A DNA stretch of 44,551 nt from an uncultured Saprospiraceae bacterium (GTDB lineage: Bacteria; Bacteroidota; Bacteroidia; Chitinophagales; Saprospiraceae), in NCBI GenBank assembly GCA_937944095.1, contig CALEAC010000152.1, positions 1 to 44,551 on the forward strand. Direction: 5' to 3'. The notes under the pieces are model-generated. The model was given only the letters and a program-made list of their open reading frames with translations. It did not search any database and was not told where the DNA came from. Numbering within the stretch: the stretch's first letter is position 1; the number at the start of each line of letters is the position of its first letter. The position numbers were made by a program, and so were the translations under genes. Below are positions 28,266 to 44,551 of this stretch, piece after piece.

Positions 28266-28280
28266 GCCTCGCAATGAAAA

Positions 28281-28354
28281 GCTCCCTTAGCTCAGCTGGT
28301 TAGAGCGGCGGACTGTTAATCCGTAGGTCCAAGGTTCAAGTCCTTGAGGGAGCG
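28281..28354 (+). tRNA. tRNA-Asn (anticodon GTT)
   Basis: A complete cloverleaf: acceptor GCTCCCT/AGGGAGC with discriminator G, D stem GCTC/GAGC, anticodon stem GCGGA/TCCGT with loop CTGTTAA, T arm CAAGG-TTCAAGT-CCTTG. CCA is not encoded. It has its own promoter and is followed by an intrinsic terminator. The integrative element inserts just downstream, and the recombinase reading frame on the opposite strand runs through nearly the whole tRNA. Confidence 0.96.
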
Positions 28355-29861
28355 CTTTAGAGGACGTATTTGAGATTATCTCTTTTACGTCCTTTTTTAT
28401 TGCCCCTAAGTCATTGATATTCAGGGTGAATAGAGATAATAAGACACTTGGCTTAGTGGTTCGATATTTTTGGTCTTCAAATATCAGTTTATCAGGAAAT
28501 ATCGAACCAATGATTTTGTGCTTTATATCTATTGAAGCCTCTTTAAAGTGGTTTCCTATATTTTGGATTAGGGGTATACTGTAAGACAGGTACTTTTGAA
28601 AGTTCGTCTTTTTACTTCTGAGTCTTGTTTGCTTCATGACTAATTCACTCTTATCATCGATATACTTAGAAGAAAGCTCTTCATACTTTACAGAACTAAT
28701 GTCATTATCAATAAACTTCTCATCTATTGAGTCAATACGGTCCTGAGCCTTTGTAATGAGCTTCTCAAGCTGATAAGTCTCTTTCAGTATATTCTTATCC
28801 TCATTTTTAAACAAGTCCTTTACAATGGCTAAGTAGAGCTTTGAAATCTCGTCTGGCAATTGAAATGAATTTAGATATGACTCAAAGGCTTCATTAGCTT
28901 TCTTGGCATTAAAACTTTCCTTACAGGTCTTTTGACATTTATAGTAATAGTAATAACCGCCATTCCCTTTAGATTTTGCGCCTGTAAGATTCCCACCGCA
29001 CTTAGCACAAACTAGGAAGCCACGTAAAGGAAGGTTAGGGTCTTTCGTAGTCTTTTGTAGTGGTTGTACTCTTTTGCTGCTTAGTATGCTTTGAACTTTA
29101 TTGAAAAGAGATTCGGTTACAATTGCCTCGTGTAATCCTTGAACAATCTCTTCCTTCTCTTCTTTCCATGCCTTAATCACAATCTTGCCAATGTAGACAG
29201 GATTAGATAACATTCTACTAAATGGGTTCTTGGTTAGCTTGAATCCTTTTAAGCTCATCATTCTTCTCACTTCTTCCTTAGAATAAATGCCTTTTGCAAA
29301 TAACTTAAAGGATTCTTCTACGAACTTGGCTTTATAGTTCGGTGTAATAGTATGAATGTTTCCAGTTTTGTATCTATCATATCCAGTCGGTGGTACACCA
29401 TTCCATCTTCCCTCTCTTTTTGCTTGTCGCATACCCCTTTTAGTATTCAGACTTCTTCTCTGGTTATCCATTTGGGGGATAGCAAAATTGATTAGGGATA
29501 AGAACCAAGATTCAGGCGTAGAGTCGTCAAAGTCGTTCTCAAGGAATTTTAACTCTACACCAAGTTTTCTAAGTGCTGCAACTTGTTCAAATGATTCCCT
29601 TAGATTCCTAGAAAATCTATCTGGTCTTATTATTAGGACCATAGAAGGATTAAACCTATTCTCTTTTAGATCATTGATAAACTCCTTCCACTTAGGTCTA
29701 TTAAAATTCTTTGCTGAATGGTCTTCTTGATAATGGTGTAGTATCTCATACCCTTCTCTATCACAATACTTCACAAGTCTTTTATACTGGTCCTGAAGAC
29801 TAAAGCCACTATCCTTCTGTTCTTCTGTAGATACCCTTGTATATAAGACTACTTTTTTCAT
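28287..29861 (-). CDS. Serine recombinase (integrase of the element)
   Basis: A 524-residue large serine recombinase. The resolvase domain has the nucleophile Ser11 in YTRVSTEEQ and IIRPDRFSRN; the Recombinase domain runs about 155-265 (WNGVPPTGYD; NPVYIGKIV); a zinc ribbon has Cys285, 288, 309 and 313; a coiled coil follows (about 355-420). Such enzymes integrate DNA between short att sites. The last 34 codons lie outside the predicted element, antisense to the tRNA-Asn terminator and tRNA, and end at a TAA inside the tRNA. In the predicted circle the frame would instead end as GAIKK-PDST (494 residues). The ATG overlaps the TGA of the small upstream ORF. Confidence 0.92.
   Translation of the reverse strand: MKKVVLYTRVSTEEQKDSGFSLQDQYKRLVKYCDREGYEILHHYQEDHSAKNFNRPKWKEFINDLKENRFNPSMVLIIRPDRFSRNLRESFEQVAALRKLGVELKFLENDFDDSTPESWFLSLINFAIPQMDNQRRSLNTKRGMRQAKREGRWNGVPPTGYDRYKTGNIHTITPNYKAKFVEESFKLFAKGIYSKEEVRRMMSLKGFKLTKNPFSRMLSNPVYIGKIVIKAWKEEKEEIVQGLHEAIVTESLFNKVQSILSSKRVQPLQKTTKDPNLPLRGFLVCAKCGGNLTGAKSKGNGGYYYYYKCQKTCKESFNAKKANEAFESYLNSFQLPDEISKLYLAIVKDLFKNEDKNILKETYQLEKLITKAQDRIDSIDEKFIDNDISSVKYEELSSKYIDDKSELVMKQTRLRSKKTNFQKYLSYSIPLIQNIGNHFKEASIDIKHKIIGSIFPDKLIFEDQKYRTTKPSVLLSLFTLNINDLGAIKKDVKEIISNTSSKALPQGLEPWTYGLTVRRSNQLS
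28361..28398 (+). terminator. Terminator of tRNA-Asn, overlapping the recombinase 3' end and the att core
   Basis: AGGACGTA (28361-28368) pairs with TACGTCCT (28386-28393), with inner GAGAT/ATCTC pairing, followed by T6. The T-tract is the first half of the 13-bp direct repeat, so integration leaves the terminator intact. Confidence 0.75.
28392..28404. repeat. attL core of the integrative element
   Basis: CTTTTTTATTGCC occurs here and again, in the same orientation, at 35197-35209. One mismatch further on both copies continue with CTA. It lies in the tRNA-Asn terminator T-tract and inside the recombinase frame. The copies are 6805 bp apart and bracket all the accessory genes. Confidence 0.7.
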
Positions 29862-30016
29862 ATGTTACTTTCTAAAAATTGTTCTTTGTCAATGTTAGCT
29901 AATTGATATAGTAAATCTCTTATGAGTTCTATTTCTTCTTTTGAGTATTTGTTTCCTTGACTATTAAGTATGTTTTGACAGAATGAAATGGATAGCATTT
30001 CTATGAAATAGACCAT
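29858..30016 (-). CDS. Small protein coupled to the recombinase
   Basis: A 52-codon frame beginning MVYFIEMLSISFCQNILNSQ and containing KEEIELIRDLLYQLANI, a well formed amphipathic helix. Its TGA overlaps the recombinase ATG (ATGA), so the two are probably translationally coupled. Small ORFs in this position are frequent before serine recombinases in Bacteroidota; they might be recombination accessory factors, but no function is known. The frame partly overlaps the preceding 36-codon ORF in another phase; together they could be one gene of about 70 codons split by a frameshift. Confidence 0.55.
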   Translation of the reverse strand: MVYFIEMLSISFCQNILNSQGNKYSKEEIELIRDLLYQLANIDKEQFLESNI

Positions 30017-30074
30017 CTACTTGAGCCTTCAAGTTTTTTAGCCTGTATGTATTATAGACTGATACTTCAGTCAT
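29964..30074 (-). CDS. Very small ORF coupled to the MerR-like gene
   Basis: A 36-codon frame (MTEVSVYNTYRLKNLKAQVD and onward, ending in KHT) whose ATG overlaps the TGA of the MerR-like gene by four bases. It overlaps the next small ORF in a different phase for over 50 bases. It may be a genuine leader peptide, or the 5' part of a small gene broken by a one-base shift. The coupling on both sides supports translation through the region. Confidence 0.35.
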   Translation of the reverse strand: MTEVSVYNTYRLKNLKAQVDGLFHRNAIHFILSKHT

Positions 30075-30898
30075 TTCTTTACCTTTTTCTTTGCGTACAC
30101 AACCTTTCCTTTTCGTTGTTTAATCTCTAAGTCTTGATCTGGATTTTCTTTTAGCAAATCGTGAATATTCGTTCCCTTACCAAAAGAGTACTCAGTTGTA
30201 ATACTTGATATTTCTTCCCCTTTCAGTTCTACATTAATGTTCTTATATCCGTTGGTTCTGATTTCGTAGAGTACTTTAGACTCTGAATGGCTTAGTTGAT
30301 GCATAGCCTTATTAAGTGCTGAAACATCTTTTTTGTATAATTTTTGGACCAAGCTATTAAGCTCAATTCTGATATGATGCGGACTTATAGTACCAAAATC
30401 ATAAGCCAAATTAGCTTCTTGTATAGATGCAAATTCAATTGTCCCATCTGTAAAGATTAAGGCGAATACAGGCAACCTGAAGCAAAGTACTCTACCTATA
30501 TTGTATTGTAGTAATTGATTGCCAGAAATTGTCTTATTTGTTGACCTCTTTATTAGGTCATTTTTGACTTTGAGGATATTCTCGTTTGAGAAACCAAATT
30601 TTCTTAATTGATGAATAATTTCCATCCATACAATATCACAAGTAGAATATTTGCGCCATCCTTTTCCCTCAGGTCTTTCGTTATCAATTAAACCTAGCTT
30701 TTCCCAATGGTTAAGCATTCTGTAAGTAATGGCATTATTAGACTGCTTGATTCTTTTTTCAGATAGAAAGGTTTGAATCTCCTTCTGATTAATGATGAAC
30801 TCATCAAACTGGTCCATCATTTTATCATTTAAAGGAATCCAATTAGCTCTGGATTTTGAGTCTTTTCCTTTTTTGTTTGTTTGGTAAATATCTGCCAT
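30071..30898 (-). CDS. MerR-like DNA-binding regulator of the element
   Basis: A 275-residue protein. Residues about 55-115 read as a MerR-type winged helix: ITYRMLNHWEKLGLIDNERP, then GWRKYSTCDIVWMEIIHQLRKFGFSNENI. Before it is a 50-residue basic segment, and after it a longer C-terminal region with no recognised ligand-binding domain and a very basic tail (KQRKGKVVYAKKKVKK). It starts the operon that ends with the recombinase. A perfect dyad lies over its own -7 element, so autoregulation is likely. It could control integration/excision, or act as an excisionase-type factor; only the DNA-binding fold is visible. Confidence 0.7.
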   Translation of the reverse strand: MADIYQTNKKGKDSKSRANWIPLNDKMMDQFDEFIINQKEIQTFLSEKRIKQSNNAITYRMLNHWEKLGLIDNERPEGKGWRKYSTCDIVWMEIIHQLRKFGFSNENILKVKNDLIKRSTNKTISGNQLLQYNIGRVLCFRLPVFALIFTDGTIEFASIQEANLAYDFGTISPHHIRIELNSLVQKLYKKDVSALNKAMHQLSHSESKVLYEIRTNGYKNINVELKGEEISSITTEYSFGKGTNIHDLLKENPDQDLEIKQRKGKVVYAKKKVKK

Positions 30899-30904
30899 TA
30901 AGTG

Positions 30905-30930
30905 TAAATCTTACTTAAAGGTAAGATTTA
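30905..30930. promoter_or_regulatory. Palindromic operator in front of the MerR-like gene
   Basis: TAAATCTTAC and GTAAGATTTA are perfect 10-base arms around a 6-base spacer, 7 bases upstream of the ATG and centred on the -7 element. A further GTAAGA half-site starts at 30950. This is a probable autoregulatory site for the MerR-like protein. Confidence 0.7.
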
Positions 30931-30947
30931 TCTAAAAACTTTCCAAA
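30916..30947 (-). promoter_or_regulatory. Promoter of the MerR-like/recombinase operon
   Basis: On the minus strand, TTTG (30944-30947) is followed after exactly 20 bases by TACCTTTA (30916-30923), one mismatch from TAnnTTTG. The start codon at 30896-30898 leaves a very short leader. The dyad covers the -7, so a bound regulator would repress. Confidence 0.65.
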
Positions 30948-30973
30948 TGGTAAGAATCTTAAGAGATGGGCAT

Positions 30974-31000
30974 AAAAAAAGCCTAGAACGAGTCTAGGCT
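30974..31000 (-). terminator. Rho-independent terminator after the Abi gene and candidate RNA
   Basis: On the minus strand AGCCTAGA (30993-31000) pairs with TCTAGGCT (30980-30987) around a 5-base loop, followed by seven T. It ends the MmeI-like/Abi transcription unit about 90 bases after the Abi stop codon. Confidence 0.9.
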
Positions 31001-31089
31001 ATGTTAAAATTTTATAGTGCAGCAAATGGGCAAAAGCCATATGGGGCACTTTTGTCCTGCGAAGTTACTTTAAAATAACTATTCAGGTA
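30974..31089 (-). ncRNA. Candidate structured RNA downstream of the Abi_2 gene
   Basis: The 116 bases from the Abi stop to the terminator have no ORF but several hairpins on the minus strand: AGTTA/TAACT just after the stop, an imperfect hairpin at 31019-31060 (CAAAAG with CTTTTG, CCATATGG at its tip, GCAG/CTGC at its base), then the terminator stem. AbiF-type proteins have been described with adjacent RNA antitoxins; whether this stretch is such an RNA, or just a structured 3' UTR, cannot be settled from sequence. No separate promoter is seen. Confidence 0.4.
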
Positions 31090-31965
31090 CTATATAACTG
31101 ATGTATAACCAATTTTAGTTCCAATTATAGAATTTATTGATGTAGAATGAGCATTTCTTGCTAAGGTGGAATTGATTTCCTCTAAAAAATCTGTTTTTCT
31201 ATTGGTTGATATTTGACCTATATAGTGTGATATGAGCTTAAAAACACCATTTAGCGAATGTCTATCGTTTCCTTGTAAGGGAAAAGAAGGCAAAGAAGTT
31301 ATACCCTTAGGAGTCTTAATATCATAAAGAACACCTCCATGGGCACATATATTTCTAATGAAAATTATGGTTTTAAAGTGGTCTATGAACTTAACAACAT
31401 TACGAACACCATATTTTGCTGATATCACCTCTTGGGCCTGAACATCTATGATCGCGTCAAATAGCTTAAGGTTGAAACCAAACGACATAAATTCTAGGGT
31501 CTTCCAAGCTGGAGCATACCTATCTCTAGGATATTTATTGTGATGATCTTTTATGGCCCTATTTCTTCTTTTAAAATCGTTATTGTAATAATTGGGTAAG
31601 TTTCGAACGAACCACCTTTTCACATATCTAGAATCATTAAACCAGATAGGTTGATTGTTATACTTATTTGATATCTCGTAAATCAACTGAGTTCTGAAAT
31701 TGACTTCTATTCGATTTAAATATTTTACTATTATGTTTTTGAGATCAATATCTAAGTAATAGAGTTTTAGCGCTTCCGAAAACTTACTGCCTGTAAGGAA
31801 AGTATGTGACCTATTTGCTTCAAAATAATGCCAATAAAAACCAAGTCGATAATATCCAATATCTAGTAACACCTCTCTAATTTTAGATATAGGGATATCT
31901 AAATCTAAGCCTCTTTGTTGTAGTATCGCTATTTGATTAGTTATCGTAGTTGCTGTTCTACCCAC
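31090..31965 (-). CDS. Abi_2 (AbiD/AbiF-like) HEPN abortive-infection protein
   Basis: A 291-residue protein of the Abi_2 family. Conserved family segments are DIGYYRLGFYWHYFE (about 35-49), YLNRIEVNFRTQLIYEIS (82-99) and FIRNICAHGGVLYD (202-215). The last holds R204-N-x3-H209, the RNxxxH motif of HEPN ribonucleases, so an RNA-cutting toxin activity is plausible. Members block phage growth by killing or arresting the infected cell. The gene starts 3 bases after the MmeI-like stop, so both are in one operon. A structured, terminator-ended tail follows and may hold an RNA partner. Confidence 0.87.
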   Translation of the reverse strand: MGRTATTITNQIAILQQRGLDLDIPISKIREVLLDIGYYRLGFYWHYFEANRSHTFLTGSKFSEALKLYYLDIDLKNIIVKYLNRIEVNFRTQLIYEISNKYNNQPIWFNDSRYVKRWFVRNLPNYYNNDFKRRNRAIKDHHNKYPRDRYAPAWKTLEFMSFGFNLKLFDAIIDVQAQEVISAKYGVRNVVKFIDHFKTIIFIRNICAHGGVLYDIKTPKGITSLPSFPLQGNDRHSLNGVFKLISHYIGQISTNRKTDFLEEINSTLARNAHSTSINSIIGTKIGYTSVI

Positions 31966-31968
31966 GTC

Positions 31969-34698
31969 CTATTTCTTTAACTCTTCTAATAACGGCTGTG
32001 TATACTCCTCATACAACTCAAACAAAAACTCTATCCTTTCCCTCTCAGACATAAAAGCCTTTCTCCGATAGCACTGGTCCACTGCCTTGTCTAAAGCCTG
32101 ATGAGCTTTAACCAATTTGGGAGGCATAGATAAGGGGTCGTATAAATCTGCTAGACTACTATCTGGAAACTCTTTTCTTACGTCTAAAACTTTTTGTGCA
32201 GCGGATTGTACCTTTTCTTTTAGTTTGCCTGATACTTCTTTGGGAAATGGGAAATTGTTGAAAATCAGTTTGTTTGAATACCTGTAATCACTCTTAAGTT
32301 TGCCCCCAATATATTTAACCCATATCATATGCATTTCAGAAGTAATGATTCCAAATTCTGAAACAGTTCCCTGTGGAATAATATATAACTGATTTGAGGC
32401 AATTATTGCCTTATCCAAGTAGGCTATTGGAATGTATTTTCTCCTTTCTGATGAAACTGTTGGAATTGCTATATAATCACTAGTTGGTTGTCTGATTTCC
32501 GCAAAGGTAGTCGGGAAAGCTGCCATTTTCTTTGTGTTTGCTCTATTGCTTGACTGTCTCCAAGTTTTCACATTGCTTACCTTTTGAAGAACGATAGGTG
32601 ATTCCTTTAGATATTTGATGTTGCTGTCATCTATCCATATGCAGAAGCGTTGTATATTGTTTATAAGTTCTTTACCACCAATAAAGGGCCTTATGAATTT
32701 TTTAGTTTGCGGCTCTTTTAATAGAATTTCCTCTTTTTCTTCCTTACTTAACGTATAATTGCCATCATCTAATGCAAAACTTCCGTAGACTAATGACTTA
32801 TCTGAATTTATCGATTTCGTTCTTAGACTAACTATTGTGTTATCACCTTCAACTAAATAAGGATTAATATTTTTTACCTTTACTTCGAGGGCTTCTCCAT
32901 TTATGTCTTCATAATCATATAATAAAGTTTCCTTATTTTGGCGAAGACTGAACCCTATTATAATTACATGCACTGCAGCTTTTCCTTTTGCTGCATTACT
33001 CCATTTGAAAGTTCTATGAGCAAAATTTATTTTGATATGTAGTTCATTTAATAACTTATTCCATAATATACCGACCTGTTCACCTTGAGTGATCGAATTT
33101 GTTGAAACAAAAGCAACTTTAATTTCTGTGCTTTGGATTAGTTCACTTGCTTTGACAAACCACCCTGATACGAAATCTAAATTGTTTGCACCTTTCATAT
33201 TATTGAATGCAAAATTTAGATCTTCTTTTTGCTGTTTAGATTGTTCTTTTTTTCCTAAGAAAGGTGGATTGCCTAGAATATAGTTAAGCTCAGATTTAGG
33301 TATAACTTCAGGCCATTCAATTTTTAAGGCATTTGCGTTTCTAATATTTGCTATTCCTATTAATGGAAGATTGATAACATTATGACCGAACTCCAAAGAC
33401 AACTTTTCATTCATCTGATGCTCTATAAGCCACATACCTACCTCTGCAACTTTGGCGGCAAATTCATCTAATTCAATACCATAGAATTGAGTGATTGAAA
33501 CTTTAAGTAGAACATTAATGTCTAGGACAGTTTGACCAGTTTTATTAAGCGCCCTTAATACTTCTAATTCTAGTAGTCGTAATTCTCTATATGTTATAAT
33601 TAGAAAGTTTCCACTACCACAGGAGGCAGGGTCTAAGAAGTTTAGAGTCGCAATTTTATTATGAAACGCATTTAGCTTTTTATCTGAATTTTTGATTCGT
33701 TGAAATTCGCTCCACAACTCATCCAAGAACAAAGGTTTTATAACCTTCATAATGTTCTTTTCTGAAGTGTAGTGAGCTCCCATATTTCTTCGCTCCTTAG
33801 GGTCTAAGGCAGCTTGGAACATTGAGCCAAATATTGCAGGGGATATTTCACCCCAATCCATAGCCCCTGCATCTAAGAGTATTTCTCTCATTGAACTATC
33901 AAAGGCTGCTACAGGTAGTACTTCTTCATATAGTGAGCCATTGACATAAGGAAAAGCATCGAGAGCCTCATTAAGTGTTTTGAGCCTTTTGTCTTCAGGT
34001 GTATTGAGGACTTGGAATAATTGATTGAGATGTGCAGCTAGATCGCTACCATCTTCTTTAGTATGTAAGTCTATATATTCCTGAAATATGCCAGTGTTGA
34101 AAATACCAGTATCATCAGCAAATAAGCAAAATAAGAGACGGACCAAGTAGACTTCTAAATTATGTCCTTCGTATCCTATCTCTTTGAGCCTGTCGTGGAG
34201 TTTACCCATCTTTTCGGCTGCCTCTATGTTTACAGGTGCTTCTTCTTGTATGGTCCTTTTCTCATACCCTGCTATGAATCCAAATAGATGAATGTTATCT
34301 ACAAACTCGGATATAGTAAAAGCATTCTCAGTGCTATTTTCTAGATCATATAGTTTGAAGTTTCCAAAGTCTGAGACTAGGACATATTGAGGTAATTCTC
34401 TCTCCTTCAATCCGTGGAAATAATCTAGAGCTTGTGTATAGGCTTTGTCTAAGTCCTTGCCTTTTGACTTATGTTCAACTAGTAATTTTCCTTTCCAGAA
34501 TAAGTCTATGAATCCATATTTCTCATTGAGCTTCTTTACTGGCTGCTCAAAGGAGGCTACTCTCTTTCTTGATATGCCAAACACATTAAAGAACTGATTC
34601 CAGAAAGTATCCTTTTCGGCTCTTTCTCTACTCTCGCTTTCCCATTCTTTTGTAAAGGTGATGGCTCTAGACCTGATTTCATTCCAACTCAGCGGCAT
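31969..34698 (-). CDS. MmeI-like type IIL restriction-modification enzyme
   Basis: A 909-residue single-chain enzyme. The N-terminal nuclease has D65, E75 and K77 (FIDLFWKGKLLVEHKSKG), the same D-x9-E-x-K spacing as MmeI. A helical connector follows (about 150-300). The N6-adenine methylase has GAHYTSEKNIMKVI (motif X), LDPASCGSGNFL (motif I, 355-366, one residue longer than the usual DPACGSGNF) and ILGNPPF (motif IV, ending 480). The rest (about 580-860) should be target recognition. Such proteins methylate one strand of an asymmetric site and cut about 20 bp away; the site cannot be read from sequence. It is followed at once by the Abi gene. Confidence 0.9.
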   Translation of the reverse strand: MPLSWNEIRSRAITFTKEWESESRERAEKDTFWNQFFNVFGISRKRVASFEQPVKKLNEKYGFIDLFWKGKLLVEHKSKGKDLDKAYTQALDYFHGLKERELPQYVLVSDFGNFKLYDLENSTENAFTISEFVDNIHLFGFIAGYEKRTIQEEAPVNIEAAEKMGKLHDRLKEIGYEGHNLEVYLVRLLFCLFADDTGIFNTGIFQEYIDLHTKEDGSDLAAHLNQLFQVLNTPEDKRLKTLNEALDAFPYVNGSLYEEVLPVAAFDSSMREILLDAGAMDWGEISPAIFGSMFQAALDPKERRNMGAHYTSEKNIMKVIKPLFLDELWSEFQRIKNSDKKLNAFHNKIATLNFLDPASCGSGNFLIITYRELRLLELEVLRALNKTGQTVLDINVLLKVSITQFYGIELDEFAAKVAEVGMWLIEHQMNEKLSLEFGHNVINLPLIGIANIRNANALKIEWPEVIPKSELNYILGNPPFLGKKEQSKQQKEDLNFAFNNMKGANNLDFVSGWFVKASELIQSTEIKVAFVSTNSITQGEQVGILWNKLLNELHIKINFAHRTFKWSNAAKGKAAVHVIIIGFSLRQNKETLLYDYEDINGEALEVKVKNINPYLVEGDNTIVSLRTKSINSDKSLVYGSFALDDGNYTLSKEEKEEILLKEPQTKKFIRPFIGGKELINNIQRFCIWIDDSNIKYLKESPIVLQKVSNVKTWRQSSNRANTKKMAAFPTTFAEIRQPTSDYIAIPTVSSERRKYIPIAYLDKAIIASNQLYIIPQGTVSEFGIITSEMHMIWVKYIGGKLKSDYRYSNKLIFNNFPFPKEVSGKLKEKVQSAAQKVLDVRKEFPDSSLADLYDPLSMPPKLVKAHQALDKAVDQCYRRKAFMSERERIEFLFELYEEYTQPLLEELKK

Positions 34699-34781
34699 CT
34701 AATAATGATTTACGGATTTATAGGGGTCATATGAAGGTAATTTAATAGTGCTAAATTCATACGCTGGATAACTGATTAAAT

Positions 34782-35189
34782 ATGGCAAAGCGAGATTCTT
34801 ATGGGACTTTTATGGCACGTGAGTTTATGCCTGAATTGATAAAGGTGCTTTATAAAGAGGATAAGCTACTTAGACGCCGTTTAAGAGGATCACGACATAA
34901 GGCGTATTATTCAGAAGATTCAAGCGCTTTGTTGTCAAATGCTTTTACTGAAAAGGTACTTCAGTACCTTATATATAGGGAGCTTTCAGGTCTTTTTAAA
35001 ATTGAGTTAGAGGCAGCGGTTTATGGTAATACTCAAAAGAGAGTTGACTTTGTAATTTACAGGAAGCCTATCTATAGACATTTAAATGTGCCTGAAATTG
35101 CAGTTGAGATTAAACAGATTTCATTAAATCAAGATATGCAGTTGAGCGGGCAAGGTTTGAAATCCTTTGCTGATGATTCAATTATGTAG
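34782..35189 (+). CDS. Short PD-(D/E)XK-like protein at the element's right end
   Basis: A 135-residue protein divergent from the MmeI-like gene. Residues 53-65 form a helix with Glu (AFTEKVLQYLIYR); VDFVIY (D89) and IAVEIKQ (E109, K111) look like the D...ExK core of a restriction-nuclease fold. The chain stops 24 residues after the core, which is short for a complete fold, so it may be truncated, a partner subunit, or inactive. Its stop lies 7 bases before the right repeat. In the circular form it would converge on the recombinase. No family is recognised with confidence. Confidence 0.6.
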   Translation: MAKRDSYGTFMAREFMPELIKVLYKEDKLLRRRLRGSRHKAYYSEDSSALLSNAFTEKVLQYLIYRELSGLFKIELEAAVYGNTQKRVDFVIYRKPIYRHLNVPEIAVEIKQISLNQDMQLSGQGLKSFADDSIM

Positions 35190-35196
35190 AGTCGGG

Positions 35197-35209
35197 CTTT
35201 TTTATTGCC
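35197..35209. repeat. attR core of the integrative element
   Basis: The second copy of CTTTTTTATTGCC. Joining the tRNA-Asn terminator stem to the sequence right of this copy recreates a plausible uninterrupted site with the terminator T-tract intact. Confidence 0.7.
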
Positions 35210-35330
35210 TCTATAATATCTCAATATTTAAATAGCTCGTAAGCAGCAAAAATCAGATTTTCCATATCCTAGTACTGAGAGGAAACTGGCTTTGGAATAG
35301 CAATATTCAAAAATTCAGTTAGACGTCTTT

Positions 35331-35362
35331 GGAGGATCTGTCTTTTGTTAGGCCGATCCTCC
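35331..35362. repeat. Inverted repeat between the element and cysN
   Basis: GGAGGATC (35331-35338) pairs with GATCCTCC (35355-35362) across a 16-base loop, 21 bases beyond the cysN stop. It may end the cys operon or stabilise its 3' end, but there is no T-tract on the minus strand. Confidence 0.5.
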
Positions 35363-35383
35363 TGTCTTATAAGAGTTACAAGC

Positions 35384-36652
35384 TTATATAATCATACCAG
35401 CACCGACCGTATTATTAGTGCCTTCGTCTACTAGTATGAGACTACCTGTTATCCTGTTTTTTCTGTACGCATCTACGAATAGTGGCTTAGTTGTTCTAAG
35501 AACAACTCTTGCAACATCATTCATGTGAATGTCTGTTTCTTCTTCGAGCCTATGTAGAGAATTGATGTCTAGCTTATACCTTATTTCCTTGACAACACAC
35601 CGTACTTGCTGACTGGTGTGCATCAGTGTGTACTTACCTTTTAGCTGTAAGGGCTTATCACTATCGAACCAAACAAGCATTATTTCCACATCTTGGGTAA
35701 TTTCTGGCTTATTATTAGCTCGGACTATCATATCTCCTCGACTCAGGTCAAAATCGTCATCTAACAAGACAGTGACTGATTCTGGCGGAAAAGCTCTTTC
35801 TTGCTCACCACTTGGGCCTTGGATCATTTTAATCTTGGTGGTAAAACCAGATGGTAGAAGCATGACTTCATCACCTTTTTTCATTACGCCGCCTGCAACT
35901 CGACCTGCATAGCCACGATAATCGTGATATTCATCATTATAAGGGCGTATCACATATTGTACAGGAAAACGATTATCGATGAAATTATGATCGCTCGCGA
36001 TATGTACATTCTCCAGATAATACATCAGTGTCGGGCCGTCATACCACGGGGTTTCCGTTGACCGGTGGACCACATTATCTCCTATAAGAGCAGAAATCGG
36101 AATAAAGTGCACGTCTATGACATCTAGCTTAGCGGCAAATTTTTCGAAATCATCCTGTATTCTGTTGTATATGTTTTCATCATAATCTACAAGATCCATC
36201 TTATTGATACAGACGACAACATGAGGAATCTGTAAAAGTGAAGCTATGATTGCATGCCTTCTCGTCTGCTCAGCGACGCCGTTTCGTGCATCTATAAGTA
36301 TCAAGGCCACATTAGCGGAAGACGCCCCAGTAACCATATTACGTGTATACTGGATGTGTCCAGGCGTGTCCGCGATGATGAACTTCCTTTTTGGTGTGGC
36401 AAAATAGCGATAAGCAACATCTATGGTGATGCCTTGTTCTCGCTCCGATTTCAGTCCATCCGTCAGTAGGGCTAGGTTAACACCCTCTTCTCCACGTTTC
36501 TCACTGATTCTTTCTATCTGCTCGTACTGATCTTGGAAAATTGACTTACTATCATATAAGAGTCTACCTATCAGAGTCGATTTCCCATCGTCTACAGAAC
36601 CTGCAGTCGTGAACCTTAATAATTCACTATCTATTAGTTGGCTATCTGCCAT
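35384..36652 (-). CDS. cysN: Sulfate adenylyltransferase large (GTPase) subunit
   Basis: A 422-residue elongation-factor-like GTPase. Nucleotide motifs: SVDDGKSTLIGRLL (P-loop), ADTPGHIQYTRNM (G3), NKMDLVD (G4). It drives APS synthesis from sulfate and ATP together with CysD. It is not fused to an APS kinase; cysC is a separate gene in the same operon. Gap to cysD is 30 bases. The C terminus (TIGAGMII-like, VGAGMII) is that of stand-alone CysN. The element's right end lies 174 bases beyond its stop. Confidence 0.95.
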   Translation of the reverse strand: MADSQLIDSELLRFTTAGSVDDGKSTLIGRLLYDSKSIFQDQYEQIERISEKRGEEGVNLALLTDGLKSEREQGITIDVAYRYFATPKRKFIIADTPGHIQYTRNMVTGASSANVALILIDARNGVAEQTRRHAIIASLLQIPHVVVCINKMDLVDYDENIYNRIQDDFEKFAAKLDVIDVHFIPISALIGDNVVHRSTETPWYDGPTLMYYLENVHIASDHNFIDNRFPVQYVIRPYNDEYHDYRGYAGRVAGGVMKKGDEVMLLPSGFTTKIKMIQGPSGEQERAFPPESVTVLLDDDFDLSRGDMIVRANNKPEITQDVEIMLVWFDSDKPLQLKGKYTLMHTSQQVRCVVKEIRYKLDINSLHRLEEETDIHMNDVARVVLRTTKPLFVDAYRKNRITGSLILVDEGTNNTVGAGMII

Positions 36653-36682
36653 TGATCCAATGTTTTGTGTGAAATAAATTTT

Positions 36683-37585
36683 CTAGAAATAGCCCTTCTT
36701 CTTTCTATCCTCCATACTGGTTTCTGACCTTTTGTCATCAGTCCGACCCCCTCTCTCTGTCATTCGTGTAGTTGCTACTTCTTCTATGATATCTGCTGTA
36801 GTTGCAGCAGTAGAACGCCAGACTCCTGTACAGGTCATATCACCTATAGTTCGACATCTAACCGTTTCTCTAAAGACTTTTTCTTCTGGCTTCTTTTCTA
36901 TATAATCGCAATCTGCAAGTAAGGTCCCGTCCCTTTCGAATACATCACGCTCATGTGCATAATAAAGTGAAGGTAGATCGACTTCCTCATGAGCAAGATA
37001 TTGCCATACATCAAGTTCTGTCCAATTACTGATCGGAAATATCCTGAAATGTTCTCCGAGATGGTGAATTCCATTGAACAAATTCCATAATTCAGGTCTT
37101 TGGTTTTTGGGATCCCACTGACCGAATTCGTCTCGATGCGAGAAGAATCTTTCTTTGGCTCTTGCCTTTTCCTCATCTCTTCTGGCACCACCGAGTGCTG
37201 CATCGTATTTACCATTCTCCAGCGACTCTAATAAGACGGCTGTCTGCAGACCATTCCGACTTGCATTGACACCTTTTTCCTCAGTTACCAATCTCTTATC
37301 TATAGCTTCTTGTACAGAACCGACAATCAGTTTAGCACCGATTTTTTTTACGAGATCATCTCGAAACTTAATTGTCTCAGGAAAGTTATGACCAGTATCT
37401 ATATGCAAAAGAGGGAAAGGCACCTTGGCTGGAAAAAACGCTTTATAAGCAAGATGAACCATCAGAATGGAGTCCTTACCGCCTGAAAACATCAGGACTG
37501 GATTCTCAAATTGAGCAGCTACTTCCCTTAAGATGAAGATTGACTCTGATTCTAATTCCTTTATATGACTTAAATTATAATCCAT
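36683..37585 (-). CDS. cysD: Sulfate adenylyltransferase small subunit
   Basis: A 300-residue PP-loop ATP pyrophosphatase-type protein. The start is taken at ATG 37583-37585 (MDYNLSHIKELESESIFILR), the usual N terminus; an upstream in-frame ATG would overlap cysC. The PP-loop is MFSGGKDSILM, followed by LHIDTGHNFPETI, LGGARRDEEKARAKE and FPISNWTELDVW. It makes APS with CysN. It follows cysC after 10 bases. Confidence 0.95.
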   Translation of the reverse strand: MDYNLSHIKELESESIFILREVAAQFENPVLMFSGGKDSILMVHLAYKAFFPAKVPFPLLHIDTGHNFPETIKFRDDLVKKIGAKLIVGSVQEAIDKRLVTEEKGVNASRNGLQTAVLLESLENGKYDAALGGARRDEEKARAKERFFSHRDEFGQWDPKNQRPELWNLFNGIHHLGEHFRIFPISNWTELDVWQYLAHEEVDLPSLYYAHERDVFERDGTLLADCDYIEKKPEEKVFRETVRCRTIGDMTCTGVWRSTAATTADIIEEVATTRMTERGGRTDDKRSETSMEDRKKKGYF

Positions 37586-37595
37586 ATCTACTTTT

Positions 37596-38195
37596 CTATG
37601 TCCTAGTAATTTTAGGGAGCACAAAATTAAACACTTTTCTGACACCTTCTTCTACCGTCAGATTTTCTGTAAGTAATTCTAAATCAGGTTGTTGAGGTGG
37701 TTCAAATGGCGAATCGATGCCTGTAAAACCTTTTAACTCACCAGCACGTGCTTTGGCATATAATCCTTTGACATCTCTTTGCTCACATATATGTAGGGGT
37801 GTATTGACATATATCTCAATGAAATCATCATCACCTATGATGGTTCTAGCCATATTTCTAATAGCTATAGTCGGACTCACGAAACTATTCAGGCAGATTA
37901 TTCCGGAGTCTGCGAAGAGCTTACTTACTTCGGCGATACGCCTAATATTCTCTTGTCGATCCTCTAAACTGAATCCAATATTGTTATTAAGCCCAGTCCG
38001 TGTATTGTCACCATCCAATACTTGGATGAAATAGCCTTCACTGAATAACAACTTTTCTAAACCCTGTGCAATAGTACTCTTCCCGGATCCCGAAAGGCCG
38101 GTGAACCACAGGACCTTACTCTTTTGGTTTAAGTAGTTTTCTTTTTCAGATCGTCCAAGTAGTCGGTCAAAAATGGGATGGATATTATTGTCCAT
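37596..38195 (-). CDS. cysC: Adenylylsulfate kinase
   Basis: A 199-residue APS kinase that makes PAPS. The P-loop is WFTGLSGSGKSTIAQ; LDGDNTRTGLNNNIGFS and NIRRIAEVSKLF are family signatures, and YVNTPLHICEQRD, DVKGLYAKARAGELKGFTG and DSPFEPP follow. With cysD and cysN directly downstream it completes sulfate activation. There is no cysH, cysI or sulfate transporter here, and the gene upstream encodes a polysaccharide chain-length protein, so PAPS may be used for sulfation rather than for cysteine synthesis. Confidence 0.95.
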   Translation of the reverse strand: MDNNIHPIFDRLLGRSEKENYLNQKSKVLWFTGLSGSGKSTIAQGLEKLLFSEGYFIQVLDGDNTRTGLNNNIGFSLEDRQENIRRIAEVSKLFADSGIICLNSFVSPTIAIRNMARTIIGDDDFIEIYVNTPLHICEQRDVKGLYAKARAGELKGFTGIDSPFEPPQQPDLELLTENLTVEEGVRKVFNFVLPKITRT

Positions 38196-38226
38196 TATTG
38201 CAGATGGATTTTGAGATTATTAAATA

Positions 38227-39318
38227 TCAATTGGTGAGTATATCAAGATACATCTTCTTGGTAATCACATAGAGTATAGAACAGACACCCCCTAGTAGGC
38301 CCCCTAATAAGAAATAATAGAATGCGCCTTTATTGACTGGTTTCAAGGGTAATATGGGTCTATCTATAAGTTGGATATAGGCAAAATTGTTCTCGACAGC
38401 TAATCTGGCGATTTGAAGTTGCTTCTCGGCTTCGCCCATCATGGTCACCAATTTCATCTCCTCTACCTTGAGCTGTTTTTCTCTGAGGAGGTCTTGTTTC
38501 CTGTATAAGCCTTGGCTTTGGTCTTCGAATTTTGCTATGGAATACTGCACGGAATTCAGTCGAGTATTAATCGAATCATACTTACTCTTGATAAGCTTGA
38601 AGTCATATTCTTGTTTTTCAGCAGATCTACTGATGTAATATTCTGATAAGTCATCATATAACTGATTGACTAATTGTATAGACAACTCTGGATCAAAGGT
38701 GCTAATATGAAAATTCATGATACCACTTAGCTCAGAATAATCACTTCTGAAGGCAGCACCTACCCTTTCCTTACCGACTAGATAATTATATAGCTTCTTC
38801 AAGGCCTTATTTTCTAGTATCGTAAAAACGCCCAAACTATCGTGACGAAATCTGAAACCCTCTAAGTCTAGTCCATCCTTACCACCAAACGGTAGTAAGC
38901 TCTTCCGCGTCCATGCGTTGTGCTCTTCTAAAGAAGCGATGAGATGATTGGCCAAGTAATCTTCCGAACCTCTCAACACCACCTCATGAAATAATGCTGA
39001 CTGGCTAATTGTACGTGTTCGAGATAGCTCTATTATCTTATCTAGGTTAGACTCTGAACTACCCATTCCTAGACCGAACTGCCCTAGGATGTTACCTATA
39101 CCACCTAGAGAACTAGAGCTATCATCGTTGAGCATGAAGTTGAGGTGTGCACTATATATAGGTGCCTTCTTATAATTGAGAGCAAAAAGTATAAATGCAA
39201 ATAGGAAACCGCAGATTGTGATCAGCTTCCAAGATCTAAAAAGATGAATCACATAGCTTCTGATCTCAAGGACCATGGATCTGACGGATATGTCTTGATT
39301 GGGGCTGATATTACTCAC
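38227..39318 (-). CDS. Wzz-type polysaccharide chain-length/export protein
   Basis: A 363-residue inner-membrane protein with two membrane helices (about 34-48, LITICGFLFAFILFAL; and 332-352, YYFLLGGLLGGVCSILYVI) enclosing a large periplasmic domain with coiled coil (about 225-310). RPILPLKPVNKG before the second helix is the Pro-rich Wzz signature. No cytoplasmic kinase domain is attached. It sets chain length in O-antigen or exopolysaccharide export. It lies 31 bases upstream of cysC on the same strand, likely the first gene of a wzz-cysCDN unit; no other polysaccharide genes are adjacent. Confidence 0.82.
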   Translation of the reverse strand: MSNISPNQDISVRSMVLEIRSYVIHLFRSWKLITICGFLFAFILFALNYKKAPIYSAHLNFMLNDDSSSSLGGIGNILGQFGLGMGSSESNLDKIIELSRTRTISQSALFHEVVLRGSEDYLANHLIASLEEHNAWTRKSLLPFGGKDGLDLEGFRFRHDSLGVFTILENKALKKLYNYLVGKERVGAAFRSDYSELSGIMNFHISTFDPELSIQLVNQLYDDLSEYYISRSAEKQEYDFKLIKSKYDSINTRLNSVQYSIAKFEDQSQGLYRKQDLLREKQLKVEEMKLVTMMGEAEKQLQIARLAVENNFAYIQLIDRPILPLKPVNKGAFYYFLLGGLLGGVCSILYVITKKMYLDILTN

Positions 39319-39385
39319 TTTAGAAAAACGAAAATACTATAGTTTTCCTGAGTTGAGTTTCTCTCAAGCCATTATAACATATTAT

Positions 39386-42300
39386 CTAGCCTAACAAATG
39401 CCCAAGAAGCTTTCTAGCTCTATCGACTTCCATGTCTTTTCGACTAGCATAATCTATAATCTGGTCTTCAGAAATTGTGTTGATTCCAAAATACTTGCTC
39501 TCAGGATGTGCAAAGTACCAACCACTAACTGCAGCGGCTGGATACATAGCATATGACTCTGTCAGACTGATCTGAGCCTGATTCTGTACATCCAAGAGTC
39601 TGAATAATTTCTCCTTTTCCGAATGCTCAGGACATGCTGGGTATCCGGGTGCAGGTCGTATGCCATTGTACTCTTCTCTGATCAGTCTTACATTATCTAA
39701 GGATTCTTCAGCAGCATACCCCCAGTATTCTTTTCTGACACGCTCGTGCAATCTTTCTGCAAATGCTTCCGCTAATCTGTCTGCAAGGGCTTTGAGCATA
39801 ATAGCGGAGTAGTCATCCTGATTATCCTGAAAGTGCGTGACCCATTTCTCTATCCCTAGTCCTGTCGTCACTGCAAAAGCCCCTATGTAATCTTTCTTTC
39901 CTGTCGTTCGAGGCGCTATGAAATCTGACAATGAGAAGTACTGTCTCCCCTTTGCTTTCTCTACCTGCTGTCTGAGCTGATTAAGTATCATGAAGGGCTG
40001 TCCACTATTGTCCTGTACGATGATATTATCGTCCTGTGTGGAAGCTGCTGGAAAGATGCCGAATACCCCTTTGGCGGTAAGCCATTTCTCATCTATAATC
40101 CTCCTAAGCATGCTTTGGGCATCGTTGAATAACTTAGTTGCTTCTACGCCGACCACTTTATCTTGGAGAATAGCAGGATACTTCCCTGCTAGTTGCCAAC
40201 TACTAAAAAACGGCGTCCAATCTATGTACCTAACTAGCTCCTCGATCGAATAATTATCGAAACACTTGACACCTGTAAATTTAGGCTCTGGTATATGGTA
40301 GTTATTCCAATCTATCTGAAATCTATTAGCCCTCGCCTCTTCGATGGAAATCATTTTTTTCTTTCTCTTACCTGCTCGCGCTATCCTTGTTTTTTCATAA
40401 TCTTCTTTGATTCCTCTCAGGTATTTCTCCCTGGCTACTAGATCTTCTGACAGTAGCGTCGAAGCCACGCCTACACTTTTACTTGCATCGAGAACATGAA
40501 TCACCGGTGCATTGCTATAGTGTGGCTCTATTTTTAGTGCAGTATGTGTCTTAGAGGTCGTAGCACCTCCTATAAGCAACGGGATGTTGAGATTCTGTCG
40601 TTGCATTTCTTCAGCGACATTGACCATTTCATCTAGCGATGGCGTGATTAAGCCACTGAGCCCTATGATATCTACTTTCTCCGCAATAGCGGTAGAAATG
40701 ATTTTCTCAGCAGGGACCATGACACCTAAGTCGAGAATGTCATAATTATTACAAGCCAACACGACACCGACTATATTCTTACCGATGTCATGGACGTCAC
40801 CTTTGACAGTGGCCATTAGTATCTTGCCTTTAGAACTCGCAGTCGTAGAATCTTTTTCTGCTTCTATGAAAGGGGTTAGGTAGGCCACAGATTTCTTCAT
40901 AACTCTGGCACTCTTAACCACCTGAGGTAAAAACATTTTACCCTCCCCGAATAGATTTCCGACCACGTTCATGCCATCCATGAGTGGTCCTTCGATTACA
41001 TGTAGACTCTTAGGATGCTTTTTCCTACACTCTTCTGTATCCTCCACTATATATTCTGTAATGCCTTTTACTAAGGAATGTGATAACCTTTCCTCTACTG
41101 TACCCTCACGCCATGAAAGGTCTCTGACCATTACCTTGCCACCACCAGTAACGCGTTCAGCATAATCAGTTAATTCCTCAGTTGCTGATGGTTTTTTATT
41201 GAATAGTACATTCTCGACCAGTTCCAATAAGTCTTGAGGAATATCCTCATAGACTTCTATCAGACCAGCATTGACAATGCCCATATCCATACCTGCTTTG
41301 ATTGCATGGTATAAGAAAGCAGAGTGCATGGCTTCTCTGACTCTATTATTCCCTCTGAAAGAGAAAGAAATATTACTGACGCCACCACTTACCTTGGCAC
41401 CAGGACAGCTTTCTTTAATCTGTCTCGTCGCCTCGATGAAATTAATTGCGTAGTCATTATGCTCTTCTATTCCTGTAGCAACAGCAAAGATGTTAGGATC
41501 AAATATGATATCATAAGGATTGAAACCTACCTTTTCGACAAGGACCTTATAGGCTCGTTGACATATCGACACTTTCCGATCTATGGTATCTGCCTGACCC
41601 TTTTCATCAAAAGCCATCACGACAGTTGCAGCGCCGAAACGTTTGAGAATTTTGGCTTGTCTTATAAACTCTTCTTCGCCTTCTTTGAGCGATATAGAAT
41701 TAACGATACATTTCCCTTGAACGACTTTGAGGCCTTCAGTAATGATGTCGAATTTCGACGAATCGATCATGATCGGCAATTTGGCTATATCAGGTTCTGA
41801 CATGATCATGTTCAGGAATTCCTTCATTTCTTTCTTAGAATCGAGTAGACCTTCATCCATATTGACATCTAGTATCTGGGCACCACCTTCGACCTGATGT
41901 TGAGCGACGGATATCGCTTCAGCATAATCACCTTCCTTTATCAGTCTAGCGAATTTCTTAGAGCCCGTCACATTCGTTCTTTCACCTATATTGATAAAAT
42001 TCATTTCCTCTCTCACGACCAGTGGTTCTAGACCTGAATAAAATGAATGCTTCGGTTTCTCAGCGCGTACTCTAGGCTTCAGCCCAGCTACACCTTCTGC
42101 CATCGCTCTAATGTGATCTGGTGTAGATCCACAACAACCACCGACAATATTTACAAAATTACTCTCTGCGAAATCCTTGATGAAAGCACTCATCTCTTCG
42201 GGTGTTTGATCATATTCCCCAAGTTCGTTAGGTAGACCTGCATTAGGGTAGGCACTAATATGGCAGTCAGCAATTGCGGAGATGTCTTTCAGATGTGGTC

Positions 42301-43051
42301 GCATCTCTTTAGATCCTAGTGCGCAATTCAGGCCAACACTAAATGGCTCAGCGTGGGATATAGAAATCCAAAATGCTTCTACTGTCTGTCCACTCAGTGT
42401 CCGACCACTATTATCAGTGATGGTACCAGAAATCATAATCGGTAATTTCTCAGTCTCCTTATCATCGAAATACTTATGGATGGCATAGATAGCTGCCTTT
42501 GCATTGAGCGTATCAAAGATTGTCTCAATCAACAGTAGATCAGCCCCTCCATCTACTAATCCGGAGGTTTGCTCATAATAGGCATCAACTAATTCATCAA
42601 AGGTTACAGCCCTGTATCCAGGATTATTAACATCTGGTGACATGGATGCTGTCTTACTCGTCGGCCCTAAAGCACCAGCAACAAATCGCGGCTTAGCAGG
42701 ATCTTTTGCGTTGTACTCCTGTGTCACCTCCTTAGCTAATTTGGCTGCTGCTAAATTAAGCTCGTAGGCAAGCTCAGACAGTTCATAATCAGCCTGTGAT
42801 AAGGATGTCGAGTTAAAGGTATTCGTCTCTATAATATCAGCCCCTGCATCTAGATACGCTCTATGGATAGCTTGTATGACCTCTGGCTTAGTGATAGACA
42901 GCAAGTCATTATTGCCCTTGACATCTTGATGATGGTCTAGGAATCGAGTCCCACGGTAGTCTGCCTCCTCTAGCTTATATCTCTGTATCATGGTGCCCAT
43001 CGCACCGTCAAGAACGAGAATTCTTTCCTTTATAACCTCTTGTATGTTCAT
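39386..43051 (-). CDS. metH: Cobalamin-dependent methionine synthase
   Basis: A 1221-residue enzyme with all modules: the homocysteine domain ([12 protein letters not shown]; zinc Cys in VGLNCALG and [11 protein letters not shown]), the pterin domain ([18 protein letters not shown]), the B12 cap and the Rossmann B12 domain with [15 protein letters not shown] (His ligand), and the C-terminal SAM activation domain ([15 protein letters not shown]). It transfers a methyl group from methyltetrahydrofolate to homocysteine. Translation starts at 43049-43051, inside a hairpin downstream of a SAM-I riboswitch, so expression is expected to fall when SAM is high. Confidence 0.97.
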
Positions 43052-43074
43052 AAGCGTACTGTTTTTAGCGCTTA
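43051..43074 (-). promoter_or_regulatory. Start-codon hairpin (expression platform) of metH
   Basis: On the minus strand TAAGCG (43069-43074) pairs with CGCTTA (43051-43056), whose last base is the A of the metH ATG. The left arm overlaps a segment (43074-43082) complementary to the 5' part of the riboswitch, so the two pairings compete. Confidence 0.6.
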
Positions 43075-43112
43075 AGAAAGGACTCAGGAATAGATAATTG
43101 AATTCTTATTCA

Positions 43113-43208
43113 CTCATCTTTCCCCTTAGATAGGGCAGGAATTGGCACCTTGCTTAGCGCTGGTTGCCAAGGAATCATAGGGCCTGTCCCTCCTCCTTTC
43201 TTTATAAG
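43113..43208 (-). promoter_or_regulatory. SAM-I (S-box) riboswitch of metH
   Basis: The minus strand contains the S-box core in order: P1 CTTAT, AGGAGGGACAGGCCCTATGA, GGCAACC, GGTGCCAATTCCTGCC, then AAAGATGAG closing P1 (43113-43117 with 43204-43208). It ends about 60 bases upstream of the metH ATG. It binds S-adenosylmethionine and is expected to turn the gene off. A near-consensus -7 element (CATATTTG) lies just upstream. Confidence 0.93.
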
Positions 43209-43269
43209 CACTGCAAATATGAATATCTTTTCGGGAAATATGTTCGCAGAGCACTCATTTTTCCACTCT

Positions 43270-44551
43270 TTAGTAATCTAGAAATTGATTGCCGATGTTA
43301 TATCGCAGGGCAGTCCCAAGATATAGTGTTTGCTGCTCTGGAAGTGTTTCGATTTGATTGACTCTATAGACAGATTCTATATCCCAGAATAGGTTGTTTG
43401 AGATTTGATAATATAGATTTAGGTGGAGCATTCTAATCCGACTGAGCTGCCCTTGATTCTGTTCTATTCCAAAGTCAGCTATCCTAGTTGTATTGCTGAT
43501 TAGGATATTACCCCCATTATTAGCTTCATTATTAAGTCCAGTTTCTGTAAACATACCTCGTATTCTCGTTTGCCAATTTCCAGGGAGGTCATATCGCAAC
43601 TCCACTAACAATTCAGTAAAGTTCGCCCCTAATGGATGCGCCAAAGGCTGATTGTAATGGCTATAATTCGATACCGTTACATCTACGACATTCTGCGATG
43701 GCTGCCAGTGAGAATAGGTATAAGGTCTTACACGATTATATTCTAATTGTAAGTCAAGCTTAGATATACTGAGTACATCCAAATATTTCATGCCCAACTG
43801 CAACCCAAACTTATTACCCCACCATTTTTCGCTACTGAATAACTGATCAGTTCTGAATTCATCGAGGATAAACTGTCCATATATAGATATGCTATTAAGT
43901 AGGTTAAGCTTAAAGTTAGTGCCTATGAGTACATTATCAGGACTATCTAGCTGGTGCTCTAGTGTTCTATAAAAAATGACGGGATTAAGGTATTGTAATT
44001 CGAAGTTGTTTTCTCTAGAGAAAATAATCGCCTCATAAATGCCTAATTCTAAGTTCCTTGTCGGCTTGAAGCTTAGATAGTGATTGGCCATGTACTTCTT
44101 TGGTAATAATTGGTTACCAAAATTGAACCGCGCTGAGATTGTAGACAACTCTGCGAAAATGGTCTGATAATGTAGTTTCCAGAACTTAGCAGAAAACTTA
44201 ACGTTAAAGTAATTATGCCCAGAATCACTAAGCAATAAGGATCTGATTCCGTTGCCGATGAAGTAGCGATTGTGGCCTAACTGTATACTAGTATGTTGGG
44301 ATAATTTATATTGTAAAAAACCGGTTGCAAAGCCATAATCGTAGCCTACCAAGCCGCTAATGATAGAACTACTATAATCTTTGTAGTTCCCCTTGCCTCT
44401 AATCGCTTTAAACTGACTGACAAAGTCATCTTGATAACCTAAGAAATTAGATTGGTTTTCTTCGTAGGCTGAATAGAAAGAAAATCTATTGTCCAGTCTT
44501 CCATACAATTCTATACCTCGCTTATTAAGAAAGATGTTGTTATCATTACTT
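43270..44551 (-). CDS. Wzi/RemB-like outer membrane protein, N terminus missing
   Basis: The frame stays open to the right window edge (codons run from 44550), so the start is beyond it; about 427 residues are present. The sequence is beta-barrel-like with frequent aromatic strand ends. NKRGIELYGRLDNRFSFY, LGHNRYFIGNGIRSLLLSD and NYFNVKFSAKFWKLHYQTIF resemble the capsule-assembly Wzi family and gliding-related RemB of Bacteroidota. It probably sits in the outer membrane and helps surface polysaccharide attachment. It lies upstream of metH on the same strand, separated by the riboswitch region. Confidence 0.75.
   Translation of the reverse strand, partial: SNDNNIFLNKRGIELYGRLDNRFSFYSAYEENQSNFLGYQDDFVSQFKAIRGKGNYKDYSSSIISGLVGYDYGFATGFLQYKLSQHTSIQLGHNRYFIGNGIRSLLLSDSGHNYFNVKFSAKFWKLHYQTIFAELSTISARFNFGNQLLPKKYMANHYLSFKPTRNLELGIYEAIIFSRENNFELQYLNPVIFYRTLEHQLDSPDNVLIGTNFKLNLLNSISIYGQFILDEFRTDQLFSSEKWWGNKFGLQLGMKYLDVLSISKLDLQLEYNRVRPYTYSHWQPSQNVVDVTVSNYSHYNQPLAHPLGANFTELLVELRYDLPGNWQTRIRGMFTETGLNNEANNGGNILISNTTRIADFGIEQNQGQLSRIRMLHLNLYYQISNNLFWDIESVYRVNQIETLPEQQTLYLGTALRYNIGNQFLDY

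Follow-up and report, generated by a model that had tools for sequence, protein, structure and literature searches.

A large serine recombinase family whose C terminus is predicted to be exchanged upon integration at tRNA genes

Direction choice by serine integrases is a long-standing question, for which the usual answer is a separate directionality factor. In large serine recombinases (LSRs), as far as the accessible part of the source describes them, the attP half-site measures 25 bp and the zinc-domain motif is offset by 5 bp between attP and attB (PMC3783163). Archaeal SSV-type integrases, in the available text called "suicidal," carry the attachment site within the integrase gene, so that integration breaks the gene (PMC8371274); they are tyrosine recombinases split into N- and C-terminal parts, with the catalytic domain in the C-terminal part. 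The nearest bacterial example of a C terminus that depends on integration is, from the accessible portion of its description, the repressor of mycobacteriophage BPs, in which attP lies inside the gene and integration shortens the C terminus of the protein and alters its behavior, the piece lost being a degradation tag (PMC4557955). In the tRNA islands found by TIGER/Islander, the available excerpt describes elements that rebuild their target once they have inserted (PMC12884075), and a tyrosine integrase at tRNA-Arg is treated in the accessible part of another study (PMC6764341). An LSR tail swapped by integration is not described in the portions of PMC10083194, PMC12884075, and PMC6764341 that were accessible, and the open-access literature yielded no report of an LSR C terminus swapped by integration at a tRNA.

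The window analyzed here, a stretch of 44,551 nt from an uncultured Saprospiraceae bacterium, holds an LSR that resembles the integrases of A118/LI, phiC31, and Bxb1 in its domain set, in the 25-bp attP half-site, and in the 5-bp shift of the zinc motif, which is seen here in relatives. It differs from them in that attP would lie inside the recombinase frame, that the targets are the 3′ ends of tRNA and tmRNA genes across many isoacceptors, and that a conserved tail would be lost upon integration. The nearest concept is that of the archaeal SSV-type integrase as its accessible description presents it, with an attachment site in the integrase gene as the likeness (found here in relatives and probable for the window). 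However, the window protein has serine recombinase domains and is not a tyrosine recombinase, and in this bacterial enzyme the catalytic domains would be kept and a short tail alone lost. In contrast to BPs, as far as described, the altered gene is that of the recombinase and not of a repressor. Restoration of the target gene is shared with the tRNA islands of the TIGER/Islander excerpt, whereas here the restored terminator would double as antisense coding sequence of the recombinase.

The recombinase ORF of 524 aa (28287..29861, minus strand), which we regard as the integrated form on the basis of its Pfam domains and relatives, contains Resolvase (PF00239), Recombinase (PF07508), and Zn_ribbon_recom (PF13408) domains, all above their own cut-offs. 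Sequence searches matched the A118 integrase (4kis/6dnw), and a structure model of a relative (L055), with predicted long helices at residues 339-386 and 392-418 that are candidates for the long C-terminal coiled coil of LSRs, matched 9dxf, 9iu2, 9rah, and 4kis with E-values of 1e-19 to 1e-10 and TM-scores below 0.5; together the sequence search and the fold predicted for this relative place the enzyme with the A118, phiC31, and Bxb1 integrases. The 3′ end of the gene runs antisense through a terminator and then into the host target gene, a tRNA-Asn(GTT) predicted by ARAGORN (28281..28355, plus strand). This arrangement had been read from the letters alone in the original prediction, and both the ORF antisense to terminator and tRNA (translation, ARAGORN) and the identification of PQGLEPWTYGLTVRR as antisense tRNA (translation) are confirmed. 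Behind the recombinase, all on the minus strand, follow a MerR-like DNA-binding protein that is either cargo or a regulator (30071..30898, PF13411), and two further cargo genes coding for an Abi_2-family protein (31090..31965, PF07751) and an MmeI-type restriction-modification protein with five MmeI Pfam domains (31969..34698). A genus relative (G012; L089 4346-9083) has a stretch 88% identical to window positions 30711-30955, the start of the MerR-like gene, and this stretch is located near the same host gene and tRNA-Asn. On the right side, host similarity extends only to about 35302, and the sequence after cysN (35302-35384), common to one relative (G009, L118), is the nearest sure host DNA right of the element. 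For an empty site of the window, the cysN-flanking stretches of 12 genus relatives were compared, and these lack tRNA-Asn.

Relatives of the recombinase were collected from 148 related genomes (67 matched, many via the antisense tRNA tail alone), from 396 genomes belonging to the order (81 of them with a match at E 1e-60), and from GTDB contigs, where the best 80 loci among 566 relatives were taken; single-sequence scans of genome and viral contigs found no relative, and alignment-based searches did recover them. Annotated phage and plasmid records matched at E 1e-20 or better in 25 and 7 cases, respectively, all with less than 30% identity, and therefore no free phage genome of this recombinase family is among them. 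The family is mostly found in Bacteroidota and uses many tRNA genes and tmRNA as targets; those of the in-frame set are Asn, Arg, Leu, Lys, Pro, Glu, Met, Val, Ser, Ala, Phe, Gln, and tmRNA.

In a gap-free alignment of 107 junctions, which was limited to recombinases whose conserved end is followed at 50-110 nt by an antisense tRNA and left out loci L226-L231 as repeats of earlier loci, the tail enters the tRNA in a frame that reads GxEP in 102 cases. In an enlarged set, a tRNA or tmRNA could be placed for 124 recombinases (120 distinct 3′ ends); the frame is found in 118 of these, and in the same 118 the distance from the profile end to base 56 of the T-arm, in standard numbering, is exactly 88 nt. 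The six exceptions, with spacings of 77, 87, or 89 nt, comprise two at tRNA-His, two at tRNA-Asn, L141 (11 nt short), and L202 (1 nt short), and three of them are low-scoring, distant members. No antisense tRNA could be placed in 36 of the 160 recombinase ORFs (six of the 160 are shorter than 400 aa); 11 of the 36 have a T-arm at register +86, five show the free register described below, and the remainder are truncated or unexplained. Selection on the antisense-tRNA tail, considered as the source of the constant frame when it stood at 20 of 23 junctions, was rejected in favor of a fixed attL geometry because the spacing is exactly 88 nt and native terminators are found displaced. As a separate observation, more distant recombinases on viral contigs (L369, L376, L384, L387) run antisense into tRNA-His in another frame, with tails like GAGDGVRTHEYRNHNPRP, so that tRNA-coded tails may occur in other LSR lineages too.

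The terminator that follows the tRNA belongs, by sequence comparison of the relatives, to the element. TCC at positions -9 to -7 is present in 93 of 111 distinct element arms, compared with 3 of 19 displaced terminators and 4 of 34 native ones, the last control including four sequences that are 1-2 nt out of register (those of that genus in register give 4/22); GTCC occurs in the same register in 68 of the 111 element arms. Insertions at tRNA-Arg (L251) and tRNA-Lys (L198) are identical over the 87 nt before the tRNA and 7 nt inside it and then diverge, and another terminator is common to several tRNA-Leu and tRNA-Arg insertions. The window has TCC as well, its GGAC at 28362-28365 being GTCC on the recombinase strand, and this in-register motif together with a hairpin of -17.3 kcal/mol marks 28356..28398 (plus strand) as a probable element-borne tRNA terminator, the antisense of which codes recombinase residues DVKEIISNTSSK; the element side would start at about 28354. 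The CCA end of the target tRNA, too, seems to come from the element (L275 (G416) compared with L276-L304): an encoded CCA after GGGCAC is absent in most of the genus relatives displayed and present in attL.

Two empty sites place the native terminator at the far end of the element, beside the core. In G416, where the element occupies tRNA-Leu, the far end lies 20.7 kb off and resumes the sequence that natively follows the unoccupied tRNA-Leu of G464, in a match that starts 6 nt past the core GGGCAC and holds 92% identity over 64 bp; the far end of the tRNA-Asn insertion in G267 matches the native terminator of G498 at 93.5% over 31 bp from the core end, and none of the other 12 relatives compared with this far end matched. 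In the relatives, the distance from the T-arm motif GGTTCGA/GGTTCAA to the core end is 23 nt in attL and 28 nt in attR, a shift of 5 bp. A scan for core plus motif upstream of the 124 recombinases, over 40 offsets, returned 18 exact matches at offset 19 and none at the 39 others; when cores were permuted among elements, a mean of 1.4 and a maximum of 5 matches were obtained, in part because many elements have a common core. Most of the 124 yielded no far end, many stretches being short or reaching the contig end, and a search by plain similarity for a copy of the tRNA 3′ end at the far end gave nothing convincing because the repeated core is short. Two far ends were found behind a single recombinase in G249:C12 and in G383:C1, which suggests that elements are stacked at a single tRNA. 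On visual inspection, no clear GGTTCGA-type motif stands out in the P′ arm, an asymmetry with the P arm. Taken together, these alignments put the crossover of the relatives at the tRNA 3′ end and not at a T-tract repeat.

Such a repeat had been the basis of the original prediction, by which crossover takes place at 13 bp, CTTTTTTATTGCC, in the T-tract of the terminator, leaving 34 host codons in the integrated gene and a free form of 494 residues that ends GAIKK-PDST-stop. The repeat does exist, at 28392-28404 and 35197-35209 (plus strand), the sole exact match of at least 12 bp between 28271-28460 and the right side (29862-44551), and its second copy sits at a plausible right boundary just beyond the last element ORF. 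Its role as recombination core is a different matter: a comparable 13-bp repeat arises in 11 of 300 Markov-1 resamples of the right side, sequence tails such as CTTTTTTATGCC come after tRNA-Asn in two genus relatives, the far-end scan of the window lends the second copy no support as an attachment core, the core of the relatives maps to the tRNA 3′ end and leaves the terminator within the element, and the terminator of the window itself has an in-register GGAC of the element type. We reject this core on the strength of the family geometry, the empty sites, and the element-type terminator, and we hold the T-tract map as a whole to be highly improbable; the PDST ending, because it depends on that core, loses its support. 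Alignment of relatives does not stop at GAIKK either, the common frame continuing past it. The antisense-tRNA tail recurs at unrelated sites in a trivial way, as GxEP, because these sites are T-arms of tRNA or tmRNA; the mapping of the core elsewhere overturns the map, and the tail swap itself stands in the relatives. One could also suppose that the constant frame comes from recognition of a T-arm and a host terminator at a spacing encoded by the host, since all sites are tRNA or tmRNA genes with a hairpin at a similar distance 3′. Yet the native terminators of two genera differ in length and sequence, and the terminator that adjoins the recombinase is element-borne with the native one displaced, which makes a host-encoded spacing scarcely credible.

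With the fixed attL geometry transferred from relatives, the T-arm GGTTCAA of the window (28333..28339, plus strand) is the predicted zinc-domain motif of the attB half-site, by the 23/28-nt spacing of the relatives. Counting 20 nt from its start at 28333, the crossover would therefore fall near 28352/28353, within a predicted zone at the tRNA 3′ end (28347..28355, plus strand), so that about 21 codons antisense to the tRNA (28290..28353, minus strand), and not 34, would form the host-coded tail of the integrated enzyme, and DVKEIISNTSSK would be the antisense of the element terminator. No attR of the family geometry is present within the window. GGTTTGA at 35154 was considered as its P arm and rejected, the bases 28 nt on not being GAGCGC and no tail-pattern match lying nearby. 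In the genome of the window, which is 82.93% complete, a pattern search for the far end gave 20 matches compared with 17 for a reversed-pattern control; the far end may have been lost or altered, or may lie elsewhere in this incomplete genome.

The two ends of the elements were rejoined in silico at the core for 19 far ends of 17 recombinases (G249 and G383 contributing two apiece); the core was exact in 18 and agreed at 5 of its 6 bases in the remaining one. The rejoined frame is open for at least 18 codons in 19 of 19, and the other two frames in 4 and 6 of the 19. The tails so obtained follow the pattern h-SN-x-h-xx-[DE]-[LF]-[KR]-x-h (h, hydrophobic), which is suggestive of an amphipathic helix, and the integrated copies carry GxEP from the tRNA. 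Because rejoined ends give a conserved open tail and integrated copies give GxEP, integration exchanges the C-terminal tail of the recombinase in the relatives, and more strongly than the original prediction of different tails in free and integrated forms had proposed; for the window, we infer the same by sequence analogy. Entropy by codon position in the free tail is 1.39/1.13/1.70 bits, the second position being the most conserved and the third the least, and such a profile argues for conservation at the protein level. The acidic residue of the pattern is present in 14 of 19, and several of the 19 are without an acidic residue or D-L. In five genes that are contiguous, unjoined, and lack a tRNA, the P motif sits at +91, the free register, compared with the T-arm at +86, the integrated register, in 11 others; these five are natural free-type junctions, possibly from tandem elements, and one of them (G383) fits the tail pattern poorly. 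In the model of L055, which is a free-type recombinase, the tail has a pLDDT below 50, too low to place its packing.

Whether the exchange has consequences for the enzyme turns on how the free tail is read. It could be real and neutral, geometry fixing the frame and the loss of the free tail having no effect; the fixed attL geometry alone would account for the constant GxEP frame, and in-frame integrated tails reach their stop at distances of 11 to 347 nt beyond the T-arm. We find a neutral swap unlikely in view of the codon-position signal and the three-frame control, by which the free tail is conserved as protein and its loss should therefore matter, and in view of the frame staying open across the 22 terminator codons (this 66-nt stretch is open in the GxEP frame in 88 of 93 clusters at 90% identity, compared with 39 and 10 in the other frames). 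The conserved segment might instead be a by-product of constraint on the P-arm DNA and not a selected peptide, S-N being the DNA motif TCGAAC read in a fixed frame. However, the pattern extends about 10 codons beyond this motif, conservation there being highest at second and lowest at third codon positions, and the other frames have stops in 15 and 13 of the 19, so we rate a mere DNA constraint as very unlikely.

In the reading that we prefer, the window very probably carries an element that an LSR with tRNA and tmRNA genes as targets has inserted at the 3′ end of tRNA-Asn, with integration swapping the tail of the enzyme. In the relatives, the T-arm GGTTCGA is the attB-side motif, which recurs in the P arm of the element at a position 5 bp more distant from the core, and the element brings a replacement terminator whose antisense forms the end of the recombinase frame, so that attP falls within the gene for the recombinase. 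In the circular form, the frame would cross the core into the P arm and end in the conserved segment of S-N-x-h-x-x-D-L-K type; in the integrated element this S-N...D-L-K segment would stay at the far end, the frame entering the host tRNA antisense and giving a GxEP tail of variable length. The full-length free enzyme may be the integration form, copies made after integration without the segment may differ in stability, synapsis, or directionality, and excision would restore the tail segment. An effect of the swap on excision versus integration, or on stability, is thus conceivable. More tentatively, and as a possibility that we would not yet favor, the C-terminal helix of the circular form may be needed for integration and amputated by it, so that later copies could no longer re-integrate or would be freed to excise, together with a second P-type site (28458-28508) that would let the enzyme bind and control its own gene.

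For at least 17 recombinases with a readable far end, the family offers one enzyme in two natural versions, of which one has a conserved C-terminal segment and the other lacks it, depending on whether the element is free or integrated. It thereby resembles the archaeal integrases that disrupt their own gene, with a bacterial serine recombinase in their place. If this is true, C termini taken from integrated genomic copies are partly host sequence, and cloning the gene as annotated would probably give the tail-less form.

The candidate second P-type site is a 51-bp inverted repeat, GGTTCGATATTT...AAATATCGAACC, at 28458..28508 in the recombinase gene, which by sequence and conservation is spaced like a complete P-type site, 51 bp being twice the P half-site spacing. 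Its arms GGTTCGATA...TATCGAACC fall in the codons for GSI...YRT. Among 57 members of the subfamily of the window that have the peptide motif, GGTTCG is kept in 50, CGAACC in 55, and the 51-bp span in 56; elsewhere in these genes CGA makes up 10% of Arg codons, ACC 25% of Thr codons, and TCG 9% of Ser codons. The repeat, with its unusual codons, thus seems conserved at the DNA level in this subfamily, and our guess is that it serves self-regulation of the recombinase. A second subfamily has a span of 57 nt, and its listed members do not retain GGTTCG. Lastly, paired recombinase genes lie close together at L198 and in G185:C8, G377:C13, G409:C5, and G422:C68, and one of each pair ends in a common tail close to AESVHL.RKHAV..LRNRM.
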